In this document: positions 3,946-32,338 of the stretch, in pieces | Layout of the letters: every line of letters starts with the position of its first letter | How positions within the stretch are numbered: the first letter of the stretch is position 1 | Source of the DNA: Ardenticatenaceae bacterium | Lineage (GTDB): Bacteria > Chloroflexota > Anaerolineae > Ardenticatenales > Ardenticatenaceae | Direction of reading: 5' to 3' | Length of the DNA stretch: 32,847 nucleotides | Assembly: GCA_026989095.1 (NCBI GenBank) | Contig: JALSKA010000014.1 | Location: forward strand, 1-32,847 | The notes under the pieces: model-generated | The model's database searches: none | What the model was told of the DNA's origin: nothing | What the model saw: the letters and a program-made list of their open reading frames with translations, nothing else | Made by a program: the position numbers and the translations under genes

Positions 3946-5504
<1,559 letters not shown>

Positions 5505-23255: not shown

Positions 23256-24854
23256 TCACCCCGGGCTGCCGGGGCGCAGAGTTGCGAGCACGGCGCGCAC
23301 GTCCTCGGCCGGCACGCCATCGGTGACGATGACGTCGCCCACGGCGCGCGGCAACACGAGGCGCAGCCGGCCACGCACTTTCTTCTTGTCCCCCTGCATG
23401 GCCTGCCAGACGGCCTCCGGGTCGGCGGGGTAGTGGACCGGCAGGCCCAGCCGGCGGAGCAGGGCTTCCACGCGCGCGGCCAGGGCCTCGTCGGCCAGGC
23501 CCACGCGCGCGGCCAGCCGAGCGGCCAGCACGAGCCCCACGGCCACGGCCTCGCCGTGGGGCAGGGCGTAGTCGCTGACCACCTCCAGGGCGTGGGCGAA
23601 GGTGTGGCCCAAGTTGAGCACGGCCCGGCGCCCGCGCTCGAAGGGGTCCTCCTCCACAATGGCCTTCTTGACGGCAATGGCCTCGCGGATGAGGGCCGGC
23701 CAGGCCCACGCCCCGCTCTCCAGCCACGCCAACAGGTGGGGGGCGCCGATGAGACCGTGTTTGACCACTTCGGCCAGGCCGCAGCGCCGCTCCCGCTCGG
23801 GCAGGGTGCGCAGGAAGCGGGTGTCGGCCACCACGAGGGCCGGCTGTTTGAAGGCGCCGATGAGGTTCTTCGCCCGGGGATGGTCCACGCCCACCTTGCC
23901 GCCCACGCTGGCGTCCACCATGGCCAACAGCGAGGTGGGCATCTGGACGAAGGGGATCCCGCGCATGTAGGTGGCGGCCACGAAGCCGGCCAAGTCGCCC
24001 ACCACGCCCCCGCCCAGGGCCAGAACTGTTGAGGTGCGGTCGAAGCCGTCTTCCAACAGGCGCCCGTGGAGCCACAGGGCCATCTCCGGTGTCTTGGAGC
24101 CCTCGCCGGCCGGCACCTCGTACACGCGGGCCTCCAGGCCGGCAGCAGCCAGGTCGGCCTGAACCGAGGCCGCGTGCAGGGGGGCCACGTGGCTGTCGCT
24201 GATGATGGCCACGGTTCCCAGGAGCTCTCTTTCCCTCATCCAGGCTCCCAGGTCGGCCGTGGCGTCGAAGCCGATCAGGATGGGATAGGTGCCCCCGGGG
24301 TGCCGGACCCACATCACCTCGGGCGGCGCCGTTGGCGTGGGCTTGGCGTGGGGCACCAAGGCGAGGAGCTCCTCCACCACGTCGTCAGGAGAGCGGCCCG
24401 TGGTCTCCACCCGGTGGGGGAGGAGGTCATACGCGGCGCGCCGGCGGGCGTACAGCTCGCGGAGGCGGGCCAGGGGATCAGGGCCGGCGAGCAGGGGGCG
24501 CTGCTCGATCTCCCCCCGGAGCCGTTCCACGATGGCCTCCGCCGTGGCCCGCAGTTCCACCACGATGCCGTTGGCGCCCAGGGCGCGGCGGTTCTGGGCG
24601 GCGAGGAGCGTGCCGCCGCCCGTGGCGATGACCAGGCCGTGCCGCTGTCCCAGCTCGGCCGCCACCGCGGCTTCGGCGTGGCGGAAGGCCGTTTCGCCCC
24701 TCCTGGCGAAGAGCTCCGGGATGGAAAGGCCCGTGCGGCGCTCGATCTCGGCGTCCATGTCCACGAAGGGCCGTTCCAGGCGCCGGGCCAGGAGTCGGCC
24801 CACGGTGGTCTTTCCCGTCCCCATGAAGCCGGTGAGCACGATGTTGGGGTCCAC
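23256..24854 (-). CDS. aroKB: Fused shikimate kinase / 3-dehydroquinate synthase (AroK-AroB)
   Basis: One 532-residue chain carries two shikimate-pathway enzymes. Residues 1-170 are shikimate kinase with P-loop GFMGTGKTT (9-17), the DMDAEIERR shikimate-binding motif and ATGGGT. Residues from about 185 to the end are 3-dehydroquinate synthase with GGGVVGDLAGFVAATYMRG, MPTSLLAMVDASVGGK, LNLGHTFAHALE and LPHGEAVAVG, which include the zinc ligands. The domains thus catalyse step 5 and step 2 of the pathway. Such fusions are known in some thermophilic and other bacteria. The start is GTG at 24854 after AGGAGG; the ATG at 24859 is out of frame. It is the last gene of the aromatic operon. Confidence 0.97.
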   Translation of the reverse strand: MDPNIVLTGFMGTGKTTVGRLLARRLERPFVDMDAEIERRTGLSIPELFARRGETAFRHAEAAVAAELGQRHGLVIATGGGTLLAAQNRRALGANGIVVELRATAEAIVERLRGEIEQRPLLAGPDPLARLRELYARRRAAYDLLPHRVETTGRSPDDVVEELLALVPHAKPTPTAPPEVMWVRHPGGTYPILIGFDATADLGAWMRERELLGTVAIISDSHVAPLHAASVQADLAAAGLEARVYEVPAGEGSKTPEMALWLHGRLLEDGFDRTSTVLALGGGVVGDLAGFVAATYMRGIPFVQMPTSLLAMVDASVGGKVGVDHPRAKNLIGAFKQPALVVADTRFLRTLPERERRCGLAEVVKHGLIGAPHLLAWLESGAWAWPALIREAIAVKKAIVEEDPFERGRRAVLNLGHTFAHALEVVSDYALPHGEAVAVGLVLAARLAARVGLADEALAARVEALLRRLGLPVHYPADPEAVWQAMQGDKKKVRGRLRLVLPRAVGDVIVTDGVPAEDVRAVLATLRPGSPG

Positions 24855-24866
24855 GGCATCTGCCTC

Positions 24867-26048
24867 CTACTCGAGCCCCACGTCCCAGCGGTAGGGCCTC
24901 TGGCGCACGCCCTCCCGCACCCAGCGGGCGTGTTCCTCCAGCAGGAGGGCGTACCGGGCGCGCATTTCGGCCAGGCTGTCGCCGCCCAGCTTCTCGATGA
25001 GGGCATCGGCCACCACGAAGGCCAACATGGCCTCGCCCACTACCACGGCCCTGGGCACGGCGGTGAAATCGCTGCGCTCGTAGACGGTTGGCTCTTCCTC
25101 TCCTGTGGCCAGGTTGACCGAGGGCATGCCCTTGAGGATGGTGGAGATGGGCTTCATGGCCGCCCGCACGACGATGGGCTCGCCGGTGGTGATGCCCCCC
25201 TCGAAGCCCCCCGCGTTGTTCGAGGGGCGCACGATGCGGCCCTGGTGCCACCGGAACGGGTCGTGGACGTGGGAGCCCCTCTGGCGGGCGTTGTGGAAGG
25301 CCGGCCCGATCTCCACGCCCTTGATGGCCGGGATGCTCATGATGGCCTGGGCAATGCGCGCCTCGAGCTTGCGGTCCCAGTGGACGTGGCTGCCCAAGCC
25401 GGGCGGGACGCCCGTGGCCACCACCTCGAAGATGCCGCCCAGGGTGTCCTGGTCGCGGATCACGGCGCGGATGGCCTCCCTCATGGCCTCGGCGGCCTCC
25501 GGGTCGGGGCAGCGGACGTCGTTCTCCTCGGCGCGCCTCCAGCGTTCCGGGTAGTCCATGTGGTCTACGCGCGCCTCCACCGGGCCGAGGGCCACGACGT
25601 AGCCGCCCACGTGGATGTCGAAGGCGGCCAACAGGCGCTTGCAGAGGGCGCCCACGGCCACCCGCATGGTGGTTTCGCGGGCGCTGGCCCGCTCCAGGGC
25701 GTGGCGGAGGTCCTCGTAGCCGTACTTGAGGCCTCCGGTCAGGTCGGCGTGGCCCGGCCGGGGACGGGTGATGGGAGGGATGTCACGCCCCTGCCAGTTG
25801 GGCCAGTCGTCGTTGACCACGTGCAGCGCAATGGGCGCGCCGGTGGTCTGGCCGGCGATGATGCCCGACGTGATGCGCACGCGGTCCTTCTCGATCTTCA
25901 TGCGCCCGCCGCTGCCGAAGCCCCGCTGCCGGCGGGCCAGCTCGCGGTTGATGTCGTCGGCCGTCAGGGAGACGCCGGCGGGGAAGCCCTCCAGAATGGC
26001 CGTCAGCGCCGGGCCGTGGGATTCGCCGGCGGTGAGGAAGCGCAACAT
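24867..26048 (-). CDS. aroC: Chorismate synthase
   Basis: AroC converts EPSP to chorismate with reduced FMN as catalyst, the last common step of aromatic biosynthesis. The 393-residue product has the family motifs GESHGPALTAILEGFPAG, RRQRGFGSGGRMKIE, GHADLTGGLKYG and RASARETTMRVAVGA, plus the C-terminal RSDFTAVPRA. Length is normal. AGGAGG lies just ahead of the ATG at 26048. The stop is 12 bases before the GTG of aroKB. The 44-base gap to aroE contains nothing but the ribosome binding site. Confidence 0.98.
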   Translation of the reverse strand: MLRFLTAGESHGPALTAILEGFPAGVSLTADDINRELARRQRGFGSGGRMKIEKDRVRITSGIIAGQTTGAPIALHVVNDDWPNWQGRDIPPITRPRPGHADLTGGLKYGYEDLRHALERASARETTMRVAVGALCKRLLAAFDIHVGGYVVALGPVEARVDHMDYPERWRRAEENDVRCPDPEAAEAMREAIRAVIRDQDTLGGIFEVVATGVPPGLGSHVHWDRKLEARIAQAIMSIPAIKGVEIGPAFHNARQRGSHVHDPFRWHQGRIVRPSNNAGGFEGGITTGEPIVVRAAMKPISTILKGMPSVNLATGEEEPTVYERSDFTAVPRAVVVGEAMLAFVVADALIEKLGGDSLAEMRARYALLLEEHARWVREGVRQRPYRWDVGLE

Positions 26049-26092
26049 AGTCGTTTTTCCTCCTGCATGGGTGGTCCTCTTCGGCGGTGAGC

Positions 26093-26929
26093 TCATTGGG
26101 CTTCGAGGGCACGCCGCATGACATCCAGGGGAGGGGGCGTGCCCGTCCACAGCTCGAAGGCCACGGCGCCCTGGTGGAGCAACATGCCCAGCCCGTCGAT
26201 GGTGGTGGCGCCGGCCCGCCGGGCCCGGGCGACCAGCGCCGTCTCGCGCGGCGTGTAGACTGTCTCGTACAGGGTCAGTGAGGGGGGGATGGCCACTTCT
26301 TCGGGCAGGGGGCAAGCGTCGGCGTGGGGAGCCATGCCCACGCTGGTGGCGTTCACCAGGAGGTCGGCCCGGGCCAGGGCGGCTTCGAGGGCTTGGACGG
26401 CGTTCAGGGGGATGGTGGAAACGTGGGCGCGGAAGAGGGCGCCCAGCTCGTCGGCCAGCCGGCGGGCACGGCTCAGGGTGCGGTTGGCCACGGTCACTGT
26501 GGCCCGGGCGGCCAAGAGGGCGTAGACGATGGCGCGCGCGGCCCCGCCGGCGCCCAGCACCACGGCGCGGCAGTCGCGCGGCTCGAATCCCCCCTCCCGC
26601 AGGGCGCGCAGGAAGCCGATGGCGTCGGTGTTGTGGCCTTCGAGTACGCCGTCCCGGTTCACGATGGTGTTGACGGCGCCGATGGCCCGTGCTTCCACGG
26701 TGACTCTGTCCAAGGCCGACATCACCGCCTGCTTGTGGGGCACGGTGACGTTGGCGCCGGCGAAGCCCAGGGCCCGCAGGCCGCGCACGGCATCATCGAC
26801 GTGTGCGGGGGCCACGGGCAGGAAGAGGTACTCCCAGTCCATGCCCAGGGCCTCGAAGGCCGCGTTGTGCATGGCCGGCGAGCGGCTGTGCGCGACCGGC
26901 CACCCCATGATGCCCACATACGTTGGCAT
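26093..26929 (-). CDS. aroE: Shikimate dehydrogenase
   Basis: AroE reduces 3-dehydroshikimate to shikimate with NADPH. The 278-residue protein starts with GIMGWPVAHSRSPAMHNAAF, whose Ser pair binds shikimate, and has the catalytic Lys in NVTVPHKQAVM. The nucleotide-binding loop is GAGGAARA, with NADP preference suggested by NRT in VANRTLSRA. The usual DLVYNPxET motif is YETVYTPRET, with Glu for Asp and Thr for Asn, a small departure. Asn-Thr-Asp in GHNTDAIGFL is retained. It lies 9 bases downstream of aroA, in the same operon. Confidence 0.97.
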   Translation of the reverse strand: MPTYVGIMGWPVAHSRSPAMHNAAFEALGMDWEYLFLPVAPAHVDDAVRGLRALGFAGANVTVPHKQAVMSALDRVTVEARAIGAVNTIVNRDGVLEGHNTDAIGFLRALREGGFEPRDCRAVVLGAGGAARAIVYALLAARATVTVANRTLSRARRLADELGALFRAHVSTIPLNAVQALEAALARADLLVNATSVGMAPHADACPLPEEVAIPPSLTLYETVYTPRETALVARARRAGATTIDGLGMLLHQGAVAFELWTGTPPPLDVMRRALEAQ

Positions 26930-26938
26930 GAATCCCCC

Positions 26939-28291
26939 CTACGTGGCTGTGCCCGCCCGAGTCAGGCTCAGCAGGGTCTCGGTGAATCCCGGAAAGCTGT
27001 CGGCCATGACTTCGGCGCCGCGAATGGTGGTGGGGCCCTCGGCGATGAGGGCGGCCACGGCCAGGGCCATGGCCAGGCGGTGGTCCCCGTGGCTGTCCAC
27101 CTCGGCGCCGCGCAGGGGCGTGGGGCCGTGGACCACGAACCCGTCCGGGCGAGGCTCCACGCGGGCGCCCATCTTGTTCAGCTCGCGGGCTACGTTGGCG
27201 ATGCGGTCGGTCTCCTTGACCCGCAGCTCGGCCGCGTCCTGCACGAGGGTTTGGCCGTGGGCCTGGGTGGCGGCCACGGCCAGGATGGGAAATTCGTCGA
27301 TGGCCCGCACGACGAGCTCTCCCCCAACGTGCGTCCCCCGGAGCTCGCCGGCGCGCACCCGCAAGTCGGCGATGGGTTCCACGTCTGCTTGGCGCCGGCG
27401 CTCCACGGCGATGTCGGCGCCCATGGCGGCGAGGATGTCGAGCAGCCCGGTGCGCGTGGGGTTGACGCCCACGCCGGCGACGAGCAGTTCGCTGTCGGGC
27501 ACCAGCAGGCCGGCGACGACGAGGAAGGCCGCGGAGGAGATGTCGCCGGGCACGTGGAAGGGGGCCTCGTCCGTGCCGAGGGGGCGCAGTGGGGCCTTGG
27601 GGCGCTCCACGCGCACGGTGGCACCTTCCACGTGGATGGGGGCGTGCATGGCCTTCAACATGCGCTCGGTGTGGTCGCGGGCCGGGCCGGGTTGGTGAAC
27701 GGTGGTCACCCCGTTGGCCTGGAGGCCGGCCAGCAGCAAGGCGCTCTTGACCTGGGCGCTGGCCACGGGCATGGGGTACTCGATGGCTTCCAGCCGGCCA
27801 CCTTGGACGGCCAAGGGCGCGTAGGCCCCGTTCTGGCGGCCCAGGACGGTGGCCCCCATGAGGCGCAGGGGCTCGGCCACGCGGCGCATGGGGCGTCGGC
27901 GCAGGGCCTCCCGGCCGGTGAGCACGCTGAAGAAGGGCCGGCCGGCCAGCAGGCCGCAGAGCAGGCGCATGGTGGTGCCGGAGCCGTCACAGTCGAGCAC
28001 GTCGTCCGGCTCGTGCAGGCCGTCCGGGCCCACGCCGTGAACGGTGAGGGATGTGGGGTCGTCGGGCGCCACGTCCACGCGCACGCCCAGGGCGCGCACG
28101 CAGGCCAGGGTGGCCAGGCAGTCGGCGGCCGGCAGCCAGCCCCGCACGGCCGTGGGGCCCTCGGCCAGGGCGCCCAGGATGAGGGCCCGGTGGGAGATGG
28201 ACTTGTCGCCCGGCACGCGCACCACGCCCCGCAGCGGGCCTTCCGCCGGGGACAGGGTGAGCGCGGCGGGCGGGTGGCGCTCAGAGGACAT
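26939..28291 (-). CDS. aroA: 3-phosphoshikimate 1-carboxyvinyltransferase (EPSP synthase)
   Basis: AroA joins phosphoenolpyruvate to shikimate-3-phosphate and is the target of glyphosate. The 450-residue product has the family blocks [48 protein letters not shown], the catalytic Asp in [12 protein letters not shown], and [16 protein letters not shown] (where class I enzymes have NAGTAxR) and SAQVKSA (SSQ in class I) point to class II EPSP synthase. The ATG at 28291 has a GGGGAG site 8 bases ahead and is preferred. An in-frame ATG at 28312 overlaps the tyrA stop (ATGA) and would add seven residues; both are possible. Confidence 0.96.
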
Positions 28292-28308
28292 GGCCGTTGC
28301 TCCCCGTG

Positions 28309-29223
28309 TCATGGGATGGTCTCGCCGTCGCCCGAGGCCGCGTGGGGCGGGGCACCGTATTTTTCGGCGTACCACGCTCGACGCCGTTCGGCTCCGGCGG
28401 TGAGGAAGGCCCGCAGTGCCTCCTCGTCCTGTCGTCGGACGGCTTGGGCCAACTGGCCCACGGTGGCGCCGAGGCGCTCGAGGGCGTCGGCGATGAGGTC
28501 GGCGTTGGTCATCACGATGTCGAGCATCATGCGCACGTCGCTGGCCGCCAGGCGGCTGGTGTCCCGGAAGCCGGAGGCGGCAAGCTGTCGCGCGCGGGGG
28601 TCATCATTCTGCAGGGCCGTCTGGACAAGGGCCGAGCTGAGCAGGTAGGGCAAGTGGCTGACGGCGGCCACCAGGCGGTCGTGCTCCTCGGCCGTGAGCC
28701 AGAGGGGCGTGGCCCGGAGGGCGCGCACCACGGCCTCAGCCTCGTCGCGCGCCGTTTCCTCCGTGAGCCGGGTAGGGCAGAGGGCGAAGGTGGCGCCGGC
28801 GAAGAGGGTGGCCTCGGCGTGGCGGAGGCCGGCCACCTCCTTGCCGCACATGGGATGGCCGCCCACAGCCCGCACGCCGTCGGGCAAGCGGTTCATGTGG
28901 GCCACGACGTGGCGTTTGGTGCTGCCCAAGTCGAGCACAAGGGCCCCCGGCCTCACGTGGGGCGCCAGGCAGTCGAGCAGCTCCAGGATGGCGCGCACCG
29001 GCGCGGCCAGCACGACGAGCGAGGCTTCGGCCACGGCGTCCCCGATGGCGCTGGCCGCCTGTTCGATGGTGCCCGTGCTCACGGCGTGGACGAGCGTCTC
29101 GCGGTCCGGGTCAAACCCCACGATGAAGCGGGCCAGCCCGGCCTGGCGGGCGGCCATGGCGAAGGAGCCGCCCATCAGTCCCAGGCCGAGCACGGCGATC
29201 TGCTCGTAGGTGGGGTGGCTCAT
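28309..29223 (-). CDS. tyrA: Prephenate (or arogenate) dehydrogenase TyrA
   Basis: TyrA makes the tyrosine precursor from prephenate or arogenate with NAD(P)+. The 304-residue protein begins with the dinucleotide-binding motif [17 protein letters not shown], then has STKRHVV, the HPMCGKE motif, and [11 protein letters not shown] with the conserved His. It ends after the helical dimerisation domain, and there is no C-terminal ACT domain. Direct feedback by tyrosine through an ACT domain is therefore not expected, which fits control at the level of the operon leader. GAGGAG precedes the ATG at 29223. An internal promoter lies upstream, so tyrA and the genes after it may also be transcribed separately. 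Confidence 0.94.
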
Positions 29224-29272
29224 GGGGATGTTCTCCTCGCGCGTTGCGTGTGGGCGTCGTGTCGTCCTCCTT

Positions 29273-29300
29273 ATAGTACCGCCCTCTCCCCGTTTGGCAA
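29273..29300 (-). promoter_or_regulatory. Internal promoter upstream of tyrA
   Basis: On the minus strand, TTGCCA (complement of 29295-29300), a 16-base spacer and TACTAT (complement of 29273-29278) form a good sigma-70-like promoter, about 50 bases ahead of tyrA. It would allow expression of tyrA-aroA-aroE-aroC-aroKB independently of the attenuator. No leader peptide is seen behind it. Confidence 0.6.
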
Positions 29301-29327
29301 CCCCCGTGTCCGCCAACTGGGGAACAA

Positions 29328-29366
29328 GGGGAGGGGGCGAAGTCCCGGGGGCTCCACGCCCCTCCC
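29328..29366 (-). terminator. Imperfect GC hairpin after DAHP synthase
   Basis: Just past the DAHP synthase stop, the minus-strand RNA can pair GGGAGGGGCG with CGCCCCCTCCC (one bulge). It has no U-tract. A second imperfect hairpin overlaps the tyrA promoter -35. Partial termination between the two parts of the operon is possible but not proven. Confidence 0.35.
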
Positions 29367-29378
29367 GCCTGCCGGCGT

Positions 29379-30431
29379 TCACGCGGCCACCGTGGACGCG
29401 CCGGCCGGCGATGGGCGGGCCACGGTGCGCCCCACCGCCTCGGCCACGCGCACCACATCCTCGACGAGCCGGGCGAAATTTTCTGGCGTGAGGGATTGGG
29501 CGCCGTCGGACCAGGCGTTGGCCGGGTCGGGGTGGACTTCGATCAGCAGGCCGTCGGCGCCCGCGGCCACGGCCCCGCGCGCGATTGGGGCCACGTGTTG
29601 CCAGAGGCCCACGCCGTGGCTGGGGTCGGCGATGACCGGCAGGTGGGTCAGTTCCTTGAGCACCGGAATGGCGTTCAGGTCGAAGGTGTTGCGGGTGGCC
29701 CGCTCGAAGGTGCGGATGCCCCGCTCGCAGAGCATGACGTGGTAGTTGCCCTGGCTCAGGATGTACTCGGCGGCCAGCAGCAGCTCCTCGATAGTGCTGC
29801 TCATGCCCCGCTTGAGGAGCACCGGGCGGTTGGTCTCGCCCACGGCTCTCAGGAGGGGGTAGTTTTGCATGTTGCGGGCGCCGATCTGGAGGATGTCGGC
29901 GTAGTGGGCCACGAGGGGCACTTGGCCCGGGCTCATCACCTCGGTGACGATGAGCAGGCCGGTGGCCTCGCGGGCCTCGGCCAGGAGCTTGAGCCCCTCT
30001 TCGCCCAGCCCCTGGAAGCTGTAGGGGGAGGTGCGCGGCTTGAAGGCACCGCCCCGCAGGATGACGGCGCCGGCCTCCTTGACGGCCTGGGCCGTGGCCA
30101 GGATCTGCTCCCGCGACTCCACAGAGCAGGGCCCGGCCATGATGACGACGTGCTCCCCGCCGATGCGCACGTCGCCCAGCTCGATCACAGTGTTCTCCCG
30201 GTGAAATTCCCGGCTGGCCAGCTTGTAGGGCCGCAGGACGCGCATGGCTCGTTCCACCCCCTCCAAAAGGCTCCACTGATCTGGGTCCAAGTGCCGCTCG
30301 TCGCCGATGACGCCAATGACCGTGCGCTCCTCGCCGCGCGAGATGTGGGCCCGAAAGCCGGCGTCCTCGATGCGCTGGAGCACGTGGCCGATCTGTTTTG
30401 CCGTGGCATTCGGTTTCATCACGATGATCAT
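29379..30431 (-). CDS. aroF: 3-deoxy-7-phosphoheptulonate (DAHP) synthase, type I-beta
   Basis: DAHP synthase joins phosphoenolpyruvate and erythrose-4-phosphate, the first step of aromatic biosynthesis. The 350-residue product has an N-terminal ferredoxin-like domain of about 75 residues ([18 protein letters not shown]) and a TIM barrel. Barrel motifs are [39 protein letters not shown] and [13 protein letters not shown]. This is the I-beta form seen in Thermotoga, in which the N-terminal domain allows feedback by tyrosine or phenylalanine. It lies in the operon behind the chorismate-mutase fusion, with GAGGAGG ahead of the ATG. The small upstream reading frame overlaps its start. Confidence 0.96.
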
Positions 30432-30496
30432 TGGTTTCCCTCCTCGTGAAGTTTCAGGTTCAGGTCGGTTCGAGTCGTCCGAAGGTGAGGCGGCAT
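30428..30496 (-). CDS. Possible 22-residue coupled reading frame upstream of DAHP synthase
   Basis: In the 210-base gap between the chorismate-mutase fusion and DAHP synthase, an ATG with a good GCAGGAG site starts a frame for [20 protein letters not shown] and two more residues. Its stop overlaps the DAHP synthase start (ATGA). It has no run of aromatic codons, so it is not a second attenuator of the same kind. It could serve to bring ribosomes to the DAHP synthase start across a structured gap (an imperfect hairpin lies near 30505-30570). No homologue is recognised. Confidence 0.3.
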
Positions 30497-30641
30497 GGTG
30501 GGCTCCTGCGTTCGTGTGGCACGGGCAGGGACACCCCAGTGAGTGGGGGCTCTCCTGCGCGGGACGGGGGAGCGCGGCCCCGTCGGCCGGCAACGTGGCC
30601 GGCACGGTGGCCGAGCGGGACGTGGGCCGGCCGTGGCAGCG

Positions 30642-32048
30642 TCATGATCGCGACCTCCTCCCCGTGCCGGCGGAGATGGCGCGCACGAGGTGGTCCCACC
30701 TGAAGCTGGGCCCTCCCATGTGCTCCAGCGCCAAGCGGAGAGTGCCGGCCACCACGTGGGGCACGGGCACGAGCTCGGCTTCGGCAAGCGTGGTTTGCAG
30801 GGTCTCGCCGGCCCGGCGGAGCAGGGCAGGGTGGAGGTCGGCCAGGGCGCCGGCCACGACGACTGTGAGCGCGTCGCCCTGGAGACCCAGCAGGTGGGCG
30901 AGCAAGCGGCCCGCCTCTCCCAGCGCCCGGCCGGCTTCGTCGAGCAGGCGAAGGGCGACCTCGTCTCCACGGTGGGCCGCCGTGGCCACGGGTTCCGCCA
31001 GGGCGGCCCAGAAGGCGGGGCCAGCCTGGCCTTGGGCCAACCGGAGGAGCTCCGGCGCGGAAGCTGTGCCCGTGTGGGCCAGCAGGAGGTCGAGGAGGGG
31101 CGTGGGCGGGCCTGTGAGCTGTGAGGATATGGCTGCCTCGAATCCCCGGTGGCCGAGCCACGCGCTGGTGGGCCGGTCCGCCAGGGAGAGGGGGGCTTCG
31201 GAGCCGGCGAACGGGGCGGGCTGGTGGCGGCCGGCGGCGTCCACGCCGAGGGCGCTCCAGCGCGCGTCGGCCAGGAGCACGACGGCCGGGGCCGGGCAGC
31301 CGGCCGCCGCGTGGGCGGCCGTGAGCCGGTCAACCACGCGGATTTCCTCATCCCACCCGTACCGCTCCCGCAGCGCCTCCCGCAGGGGCTCCGGTTCCCG
31401 GGCGTCGAGGCTCAGGACGACGGCGCTGAGGCTCTTGGGGCGCAGGGGCCGGGGGCGGGCTTCCAGGAGGGCGGCGTCCAGGGCGTCGTAGAGGCGCGAG
31501 AGGACCAGGCGGCCGGAGGGGAGGAAGAGGGAGGAGGTCGAGCAGTAGTGGGCCAACACTTCGCCGTTCGTGGCGCCGATGACTGTGGTGTAGCCCCCGG
31601 CGTGGGCGTCGAGGGCGAGAACGAGGGGGCCGCTCGGCGCGGCGTCCAACACCTCGTCTTCCGGGGAAGGTGGGGAGAACTCGACGGCCCGGTCGGGGCG
31701 CAGGTGGCGGGCGCCCCGGATGTAGACGTGGTGGATTTCGTCCTGGGCGCGCTCGGTGTTCCAGTGGATGAGCACGCGGATGCAGCGCCGGAGGGCGCCG
31801 GGCACGTTCATCTCGTGGGTGCAGAAGAGGGCCACGTCGTGCCAGCCGAGCTGGCGGGCCGCCACGGCGGGGAACTCGGCGTTGAGGTCCGGCGTGGTGC
31901 TGAAGATGACGCTGGCCACGTCCTCGGGGCGAATGCCGTTGGCGAGCACCAGGCGGCGCAGGAGGTCGCGGGTGGCTTCCAGGATGGCCTCACGGTCATT
32001 GGAGTCCACCGTGGTGGCGCCGCGCACTCCCCGACATACGAGTCCCAT
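30642..32048 (-). CDS. AroH-type chorismate mutase fused to a BadF/GlcNAc-kinase-like domain
   Basis: Residues 1-120 are an AroH-class chorismate mutase, which turns chorismate into prephenate. All active-site residues known from Bacillus subtilis AroH are present: Arg9, Phe59, Arg65, Cys76, Glu79, Arg91 and Tyr109. After a short linker the chain continues to 468 residues, while AroH proteins are normally about 120-127. The extra part (from about 138) resembles the ASKHA fold of BadF/BadG and N-acetylglucosamine kinases: [17 protein letters not shown] near its start, [13 protein letters not shown], and the C-terminal [20 protein letters not shown]. The phosphate-1 motif is altered (AHAGGYTT for GGGTKT), so kinase activity is doubtful. 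GGGAGGAGG lies ahead of the ATG. It is the first enzyme gene after the attenuator. Confidence 0.85.
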
Positions 32049-32068: not shown

Positions 32069-32099
32069 AAAAAAGCGTGGAGCTGGCTGCTCCACGCTT
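32069..32099 (-). terminator. Intrinsic terminator (attenuator) of the aromatic operon
   Basis: On the minus strand AAGCGTGGAGC pairs with GCTCCACGCTT through 11 perfect base pairs (complement of 32089-32099 and 32073-32083) around the loop AGCCA, followed by a T-run (six T's, complement of 32069-32074, the first two shared with the stem). It ends about 20 bases before the chorismate-mutase start and lies after the leader peptide stop. With no gene ended nearby other than the leader, it must act as a regulated terminator. Confidence 0.88.
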
Positions 32100-32178
32100 C
32101 TGTTCGGTCCTGGTCGGGGCGGCTAGGTGAGGCCCTCAAGGTATGGCGCGTCGCAGCCAGGCGCCGGGAGGCACCAGG
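32083..32178 (-). promoter_or_regulatory. Protector and antiterminator structures of the aromatic attenuator
   Basis: Two competing folds are visible in the leader RNA. Protector: CCTGGTGCC (complement of 32170-32178, including the Trp37 codon) pairs with GGCGCCTGG (32157-32165) around TCCC, with one mismatch and one G-U. Antiterminator: CTGGCTGCGACGC (32148-32160) pairs with GCGTGGAGCAGCCAG (32083-32097) in an 8-bp and a 4-bp block, using up the terminator 5' arm. The two share 32157-32160 and cannot coexist. A ribosome stalled on the aromatic codons would open the protector and so favour the antiterminator. The pairing is seen; the mechanism is inferred. Confidence 0.65.
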
Positions 32179-32284
32179 CAAAGTAGAAAAAGTAATACGG
32201 CGCGCCAAAGCCCTGAGCGGACGGCCGTCTGGCCGTCCCGGCAGCGGGCATCGTTCCGTTGAACGCAATGCTGAACATGTGCAT
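32123..32284 (-). CDS. Leader peptide of the aromatic amino-acid operon
   Basis: A 53-residue reading frame starts about 20 bases after the predicted transcription start, with GGTGAGG just ahead of the ATG at 32284; an alternative ATG lies at 32278. Residues 30-37 (complement of 32174-32197) read Tyr-Tyr-Phe-Phe-Tyr-Phe-Ala-Trp, followed by Cys. A run of six Tyr/Phe plus a Trp is far from chance in this genome and is what attenuation leader peptides such as trpL and pheL look like. It is followed by the protector/antiterminator segments and a perfect intrinsic terminator. The peptide itself probably has no function beyond the stalling of the ribosome. Phe and Tyr codons here include TTT and TAT, which are rare in the surrounding genes. 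Confidence 0.85.
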   Translation of the reverse strand: MHMFSIAFNGTMPAAGTARRPSAQGFGAPYYFFYFAWCLPAPGCDAPYLEGLT

Positions 32285-32309
32285 GGACCTCACCCCACGT
32301 GTGGCTCCT

Positions 32310-32338
32310 ATGGTAACAGAAGTGGCCCGATTTGTCAA
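32310..32338 (-). promoter_or_regulatory. Promoter of the aromatic operon
   Basis: On the minus strand there is a perfect -35 TTGACA (complement of 32333-32338), a 17-base spacer and a -10 TACCAT (complement of 32310-32315). Transcription should start near 32303, just ahead of the leader peptide. It is the strongest -35 in the window. Confidence 0.8.

Follow-up and report, generated by a model that had tools for sequence, protein, structure and literature searches.

A Phe/Tyr-rich leader peptide and a predicted transcription attenuator ahead of the shikimate operon in Chloroflexota

In Escherichia coli, the pheL (pheA leader) and trpL leaders are each rich in the amino acid that they regulate and can adopt alternative protector, antiterminator and terminator hairpins (PMC11802643). 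The leader described here has the same organization, but whereas pheL and trpL each respond to one amino acid and serve a single terminal branch, it stands ahead of the common pathway, and we claim no sequence relation. Closer in its placement is the aroR leader of Corynebacterium glutamicum, which likewise precedes the DAHP synthase gene aroF, carries the residues Phe-Tyr-Phe and acts by ribosome-mediated attenuation; its three aromatic codons are reported to respond to Phe and not to Tyr (PMC11802643, PMC4046766). aroR belongs to a different phylum, and the present leader differs from it in having about seven aromatic codons, a Trp codon in some lineages and a seven-gene shikimate operon downstream. 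The uORFC-13-1 motif likewise consists of a predicted upstream ORF with one or more Phe codons and a terminator, followed by aroF; in the part of the report drawn on here, it is confined to Acholeplasma (24 sequences, with at least one Phe codon) and a Tyr/Trp run is not described (PMC8632094).

Peptides that carry codons for each of the three amino acids made by a branched pathway are well known from the ilvL-type leaders of E. coli ilvGMEDA and C. glutamicum ilvBNC (PMC11857589, PMC6123439), so that a preliminary description of our locus overstated the case in holding that leaders usually sense one or two amino acids. Those Ile/Val/Leu leaders belong to the branched-chain pathway of Proteobacteria and Actinobacteria, whereas the present one belongs to the aromatic pathway of Chloroflexota. 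Within the latter phylum, tRNA charging is known to control aromatic biosynthesis through a T-box ahead of trpE, which binds tRNA directly, has no leader peptide and concerns the Trp branch only (PMC2494555). As late as 2010, a study that added Firmicutes cases could state that leader peptides had until then been unknown beyond Proteobacteria and Actinobacteria (PMC2965389). For Chloroflexota, we found no published case of aromatic genes controlled by leader-peptide attenuation, an absence that is uncertain because the search missed several comparative attenuator surveys. The preliminary view that no example had been described in a bacterium of this type holds for the phylum as far as we found, but is too strong in general, given the Phe-Tyr-Phe leader of C. 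glutamicum aroF.

Layout of the leader and its operon

The window, that is, the whole stretch of DNA analysed here, comprises 32,847 nucleotides from a metagenome-assembled genome (MAG) of an Ardenticatenaceae bacterium of the class Anaerolineae. On its minus strand, a promoter, a 53-codon leader (...PYYFFYFAW...), a terminator and aroH follow one another in this order, and we confirmed that the elements are present as previously described, including the run Tyr-Tyr-Phe-Phe-Tyr-Phe-Ala-Trp and the enzyme gene that follows. The sigma-70-type promoter of the leader transcript (32310-32338, minus strand) reads TTGACA-17-TACCAT with a TG before the -10 element; it matches the consensus at 10/12 positions, against a mean of 0.0 for shuffles in a promoter scan of the minus strand. 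From the end of the -10 element to the first ATG we measured 25 bases rather than the 20 or so given initially. The leader ORF (MHMFSIAFNGTMPAAGTARRPSAQGFGAPYYFFYFAWCLPAPGCDAPYLEGLT; 32123-32284, minus strand) consists of 53 codons plus TAG, its ATG lying at 32284, an alternative in-frame second ATG at 32278 and the stop at 32125-32123; its aromatic run and its position are conserved class-wide. Codons 30-37 (32174-32197, minus strand) form the presumed control region, Y30 Y31 F32 F33 Y34 F35 A36 W37. The first gene of the operon starts with an ATG at 32048, preceded by a Shine-Dalgarno-like GGAGGAGG. An attenuator calls for a promoter and a short ORF in which codons for the pathway products are clustered, and for an intrinsic terminator between that ORF and the first gene; each of these was found.

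The first gene (30642-32048, minus strand) encodes a type I chorismate mutase (AroH, residues 6-119) joined to a sugar-kinase-like (ASKHA) domain. Pfam assignments identify the remainder of the operon (23256-30605, minus strand) as aroF (DAHP synthase), tyrA (prephenate dehydrogenase), aroA (EPSP synthase), aroE (shikimate dehydrogenase), aroC (chorismate synthase) and an aroK-aroB fusion (shikimate kinase-DHQ synthase), all on one strand and in that order. Relatives keep the order aroH-(pheA)-aroF-tyrA-aroA-aroE-..., pheA standing between aroH and aroF in some of them. A scan of the operon interior revealed no minus-strand terminator and no other good promoter, the one weaker minus-strand candidate (29300-29273) scoring 9/12; the proposed control of the whole operon by the leader fits these results. 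The gene content matches the amino acids presumably sensed, which we count in favour of an attenuator.

In Ardenticatenaceae, the domain fused to AroH (30645-31682, minus strand) comprises 345 residues, evolves fast and has no Pfam match. Its predicted structure (mean pLDDT 77) resembles N-acetylglucosamine kinase/hexokinase (ASKHA) folds, with a best Foldseek E of 4e-14 and a TM of about 0.6, and the domain may have a regulatory role. In the closest relative (L003; G002:C14:28490-29885), the fused aroH is split into two overlapping frames, either by a frameshift or by an assembly error.

Conservation of the leader and co-evolution of its RNA arms

To follow the leader across the class, aroH upstream regions from Anaerolineae were freed of duplicates and 450 bases of each were scanned for a short ORF with at least six aromatic residues in 10 codons (n = 162). 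Such a frame occurs in 140/162 regions, as against 8/810 dinucleotide shuffles and 2/162 antisense sequences. When leaders with at least five aromatic residues are considered, 143 of 147 are separated from aroH by a terminator, mostly 14-54 nt past the leader stop codon. Four close family members have in common the promoter position (TTGACA/TATCAT, TTGACA/TACCAT and, twice, TTGACT/TATAGT), the TGG codon, segment 2 (see below) and the terminator. The closest named relatives of the DAHP synthase come from MAGs called Ardenticatenaceae and Ardenticatena. Outside the class but in the same phylum, the leader recurs in families f71, f81, f107, f110 and part of f74; it was not seen in families f76, f77, f89 and f102. 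Inspection further revealed, as single examples, an aromatic leader plus terminator ahead of aroF in two Calditrichota records (L093, HFFGFYFGYYYWTQ, leader ORF at 4837-4903; L103, YFEFQLYYFYYFP, at 4844-4909) and in one Planctomycetota record (L094, FGYFFSFWYY, at 4779-4901).

Two further observations concern the terminator region. In L093, a long complement to it (CCTCTCAGTAGATTGAG) lies after the leader. Among Anaerolineae, the terminator arm AGCGTGGAGC is nearly identical across many distant families (for example, L002, L015, L023 and L058), a degree of conservation that exceeds the needs of a terminator.

The alternative RNA structures of the window involve four segments, all on the minus strand. 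Segment 1 (TGGCGCGCCGTA; 32196-32207), the 5' arm of the protector, lies immediately before the first Tyr codon and reaches into it; in the minimum-energy fold of the leader it pairs with 32155-32144. Segment 2 (TGGCTGCGACGCGCCA; 32144-32159) takes part in both the protector (1:2) and the antiterminator (2:3); its codons specify Gly-Cys-Asp-Ala-Pro, and it is near-invariant within the Ardenticatenaceae relatives. Segment 3 (GCGTGGAGCAGCCA; 32084-32097) forms the 5' arm and loop of the terminator and is the antiterminator partner of segment 2. The intrinsic terminator (32069-32101) consists of segments 3 and 4 and a T-run, its hairpin (32071-32101) having a predicted energy of -22.7 kcal/mol (z = -6.8 relative to shuffles). 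The minimum-energy structure of the complete leader RNA contains both protector and terminator, and its stability exceeds that of dinucleotide shuffles by 5.6 sd.

The window's own 2:3 fold is not stronger than shuffles (z = -0.8; a single-genome test). Such unremarkable single-genome statistics for the antiterminator would suit a chance meeting of T-rich sequence with a random terminator, an explanation ruled out by class-wide conservation, codon bias and co-evolution and to which we accord practically no weight. Across the class, simple shuffling of segment 2 lends moderate support to 2:3 pairing, with 47/141 leaders beating all 50 shuffles, and protector pairing (1:2) is not significant in this cruder test. 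We attribute the weakness of this support to the readiness with which GC-rich DNA pairs with anything, and therefore relied on a swap test instead. For each leader, segment 2 was taken from run end to stop and segment 3 as terminator 5' arm plus loop; the leader's own pair was then compared with all swapped pairs after removal of mean arm strength (double centring), in 108 dissimilar representatives and with 20,000 permutations. Own 2:3 pairs are more stable than expected by 3.5 kcal/mol (z = -13.5; 0/20,000 permutations), and protector arms 1:2 also co-evolve (z = -5.9; 0/20,000 permutations). Two control segments gave null results in the same test, namely the 45 bases upstream of the run (z = +1.1) and the spacer between stop codon and terminator (z = +1.4). 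The complementary change can be seen by eye, as in L012 (CCGTCCCACGC with GCGTGGGACGG) and L152 (GTCGCCATCC with GGATGGCGAC). The antiterminator hence has an arm in common with the terminator that is conserved by complementary change, and segment 2 can also be captured by a protector arm that precedes the control codons or lies among them.

These observations bear on two other accounts of the leader. The ORF is conserved and short aromatic-rich peptides can be membrane peptides, which would agree with a functional small protein that has the terminator to itself; yet only the aromatic run is conserved, Phe and Tyr are freely interchanged, the N- and C-terminal parts differ widely among relatives, and a function at the protein level leaves unexplained why segment 2, inside the ORF, co-evolves with a terminator arm. 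We consider this account very improbable. Just as little credit is due to direct sensing by the RNA, in which the leader would be a riboswitch or T-box and the ORF incidental. The organism does possess such a device, the T-box on its trp operon, but the leader RNA matched no Rfam family, even at a relaxed threshold, and what is conserved is the codon run and not a receptor-like RNA, the sequence 5' of the run varying widely. By comparison, ribosome-mediated attenuation, as originally suggested, is strongly supported by class-wide conservation together with co-evolution of the protector and antiterminator arms. The envisaged refutation, that relatives might keep the operon and lose the run, is likewise countered by retention of the run in most aroH upstream regions and by the co-evolving arms. 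The leader is thus very probably a classical ribosome-mediated transcription attenuator that senses Phe and Tyr, with Trp a plausible, lineage-dependent third input.

Ribosome position and the predicted switch

Judging from these elements, the leader would be translated, and stalling of the ribosome would set expression of the operon. RNA polymerase would start near 32303 and a ribosome would begin the leader peptide. When charged tRNA-Phe or tRNA-Tyr is scarce (in Ardenticatenaceae, perhaps also tRNA-Trp), the ribosome would stall at codons 30-37, on or beside segment 1, so that the protector could not take segment 2. Free segment 2 would then pair with the emerging segment 3, the terminator would be blocked, and aroH-aroF-tyrA-aroA-aroE-aroC-aroKB would be transcribed. 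With plentiful amino acids, the ribosome would pass segment 2 and reach the stop codon, leaving segment 2 occupied or refolded with segment 1; segment 3 would pair with segment 4 and transcription would end before aroH.

We modelled this switch by folding the RNA downstream of the ribosome codon by codon with arm 4 absent and scoring the pairing probability of arm 3 with segment 2; the model assumes that the ribosome covers 13 nt beyond the first base of the codon in the A site and that the partial transcript folds at equilibrium. Averaged over the class (n = 141), the modelled antiterminator probability drops from 0.66 for a ribosome in the run to 0.26 for one at the stop. The corresponding values in the window are 0.64 at every run codon, Trp included, and 0.06 at the stop; the plateau of 0.64 extends from seven codons before the run to two past the Trp codon and then declines unevenly. 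In the class-average profile, the drop comes no more than 5-6 codons beyond the last aromatic codon, which indicates that the run, including Trp where present, sits where a stall would matter; 66/71 Trp codons fall inside the modelled stall window. In the model, then, a stall on the control codons frees segment 2 and a ribosome at the stop does not favour the antiterminator, as expected for an attenuator. The untranslated leader of the window would, with a modelled value of 0.53, also antiterminate rather frequently, which counts against the proposed switch, and the effect of the protector is small in this model. When the complete window leader is folded at equilibrium, the terminator dominates at every ribosome position and the states are not separated; the stalled and stop-codon states can be told apart only when the fold is scored ahead of arm 4 synthesis, and this premise, although customary, is nonetheless a premise.

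Amino acids sensed and the reach of the system

In the run cores of 141 leaders we counted 552 Phe, 442 Tyr and 53 Trp codons as compared with 2 Leu, 6 Ile and 10 Val, and this near-absence of Leu, Ile and Val points to selection on the codons rather than to T-rich DNA. Both Phe and Tyr are present in 139/141 leaders and are, on this codon usage, highly likely to be inputs. Trp is found in the run core of 48/141 leaders and within three codons of the run in 56/141, and is lacking in about 60% of relatives. The initial proposal that one peptide senses all three products of the pathway is accordingly credible for Phe and Tyr, whose codons are near-universal, and less so for Trp, which is fixed only in some lineages, Ardenticatenaceae among them.

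Conceivably, then, the attenuator senses Phe and Tyr only, the Trp codon being a bystander kept by RNA structure or by common descent. Beyond the patchy occurrence of Trp near the run, a 77-row AroH tree of poor resolution requires a minimum of 15 changes in the state of this residue; as the tree has too few columns for dating Trp gains, we used this minimum count alone. In 13 of the 56 leaders, moreover, Trp lies only within a Trp-Arg-Gly or Trp-Cys-Gly motif, whose DNA may serve the protector arm. The operon itself contains genes of the Phe/Tyr branch (aroH, tyrA and sometimes pheA) and no trp genes; in the window's genome pheA is located elsewhere, outside the aro operon, and inspection of its sequence by eye revealed no aromatic leader ahead of it. 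The trp operon in this genome carries a promoter and a tRNA sensor of its own, namely a T-box RNA ahead of trpE (L229 3155-3497, G000:C178; RF00230, 76.8 bits, E = 5.7e-17), matched in relaxed mode with a score below the curated cut-off of 93; its specifier aligns as UGG, after GAA. Because Trp is sensed separately for the trp branch, sensing it at the common pathway as well is sensible but not necessary.

Several findings go against a mere bystander. Among non-Phe/Tyr residues, Trp accounts for 6.1% in or beside the runs and only 1.3% elsewhere in the leaders, an approximately fivefold enrichment (Fisher p = 1e-17, uncorrected for relatedness), and two substitutions separate TGG from every Phe and Tyr codon. 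Nearly all such Trp codons fall within the modelled stall window. Finally, all three residues are conserved in 6/6 Ardenticatenaceae genomes examined, the window's included, with Ala-Trp or Gly-Trp at or near the run end; L010 keeps its Trp in an otherwise diverged sequence, with a weaker run (GAYYYAW) and Phe outside the tight run. Weighing both sides, we regard sensing of Phe and Tyr alone as a serious candidate that falls somewhat short of an even chance, and a real Trp input in Ardenticatenaceae as about evenly balanced.

If Trp is an input, a single leader would act as an OR gate through which shortage of any aromatic amino acid affects the whole shikimate operon. We tentatively propose, with a little less than even confidence, such a gate, a Trp input repeatedly gained and lost within Chloroflexota, and a separate origin of similar aroF leaders in Calditrichota and Planctomycetota. 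The predicted attenuator would bring leader-peptide attenuation, long known mainly from Proteobacteria and Actinobacteria and later from Firmicutes, into a phylum that is large and mostly uncultured, and to the point where the aromatic pathway begins. The naturally occurring variants, more than 140 in number and with Phe, Tyr and Trp codons exchanged among them, would constitute a data set on how one leader weighs several amino acids, and may also allow one to ask how an amino-acid input is gained or lost.
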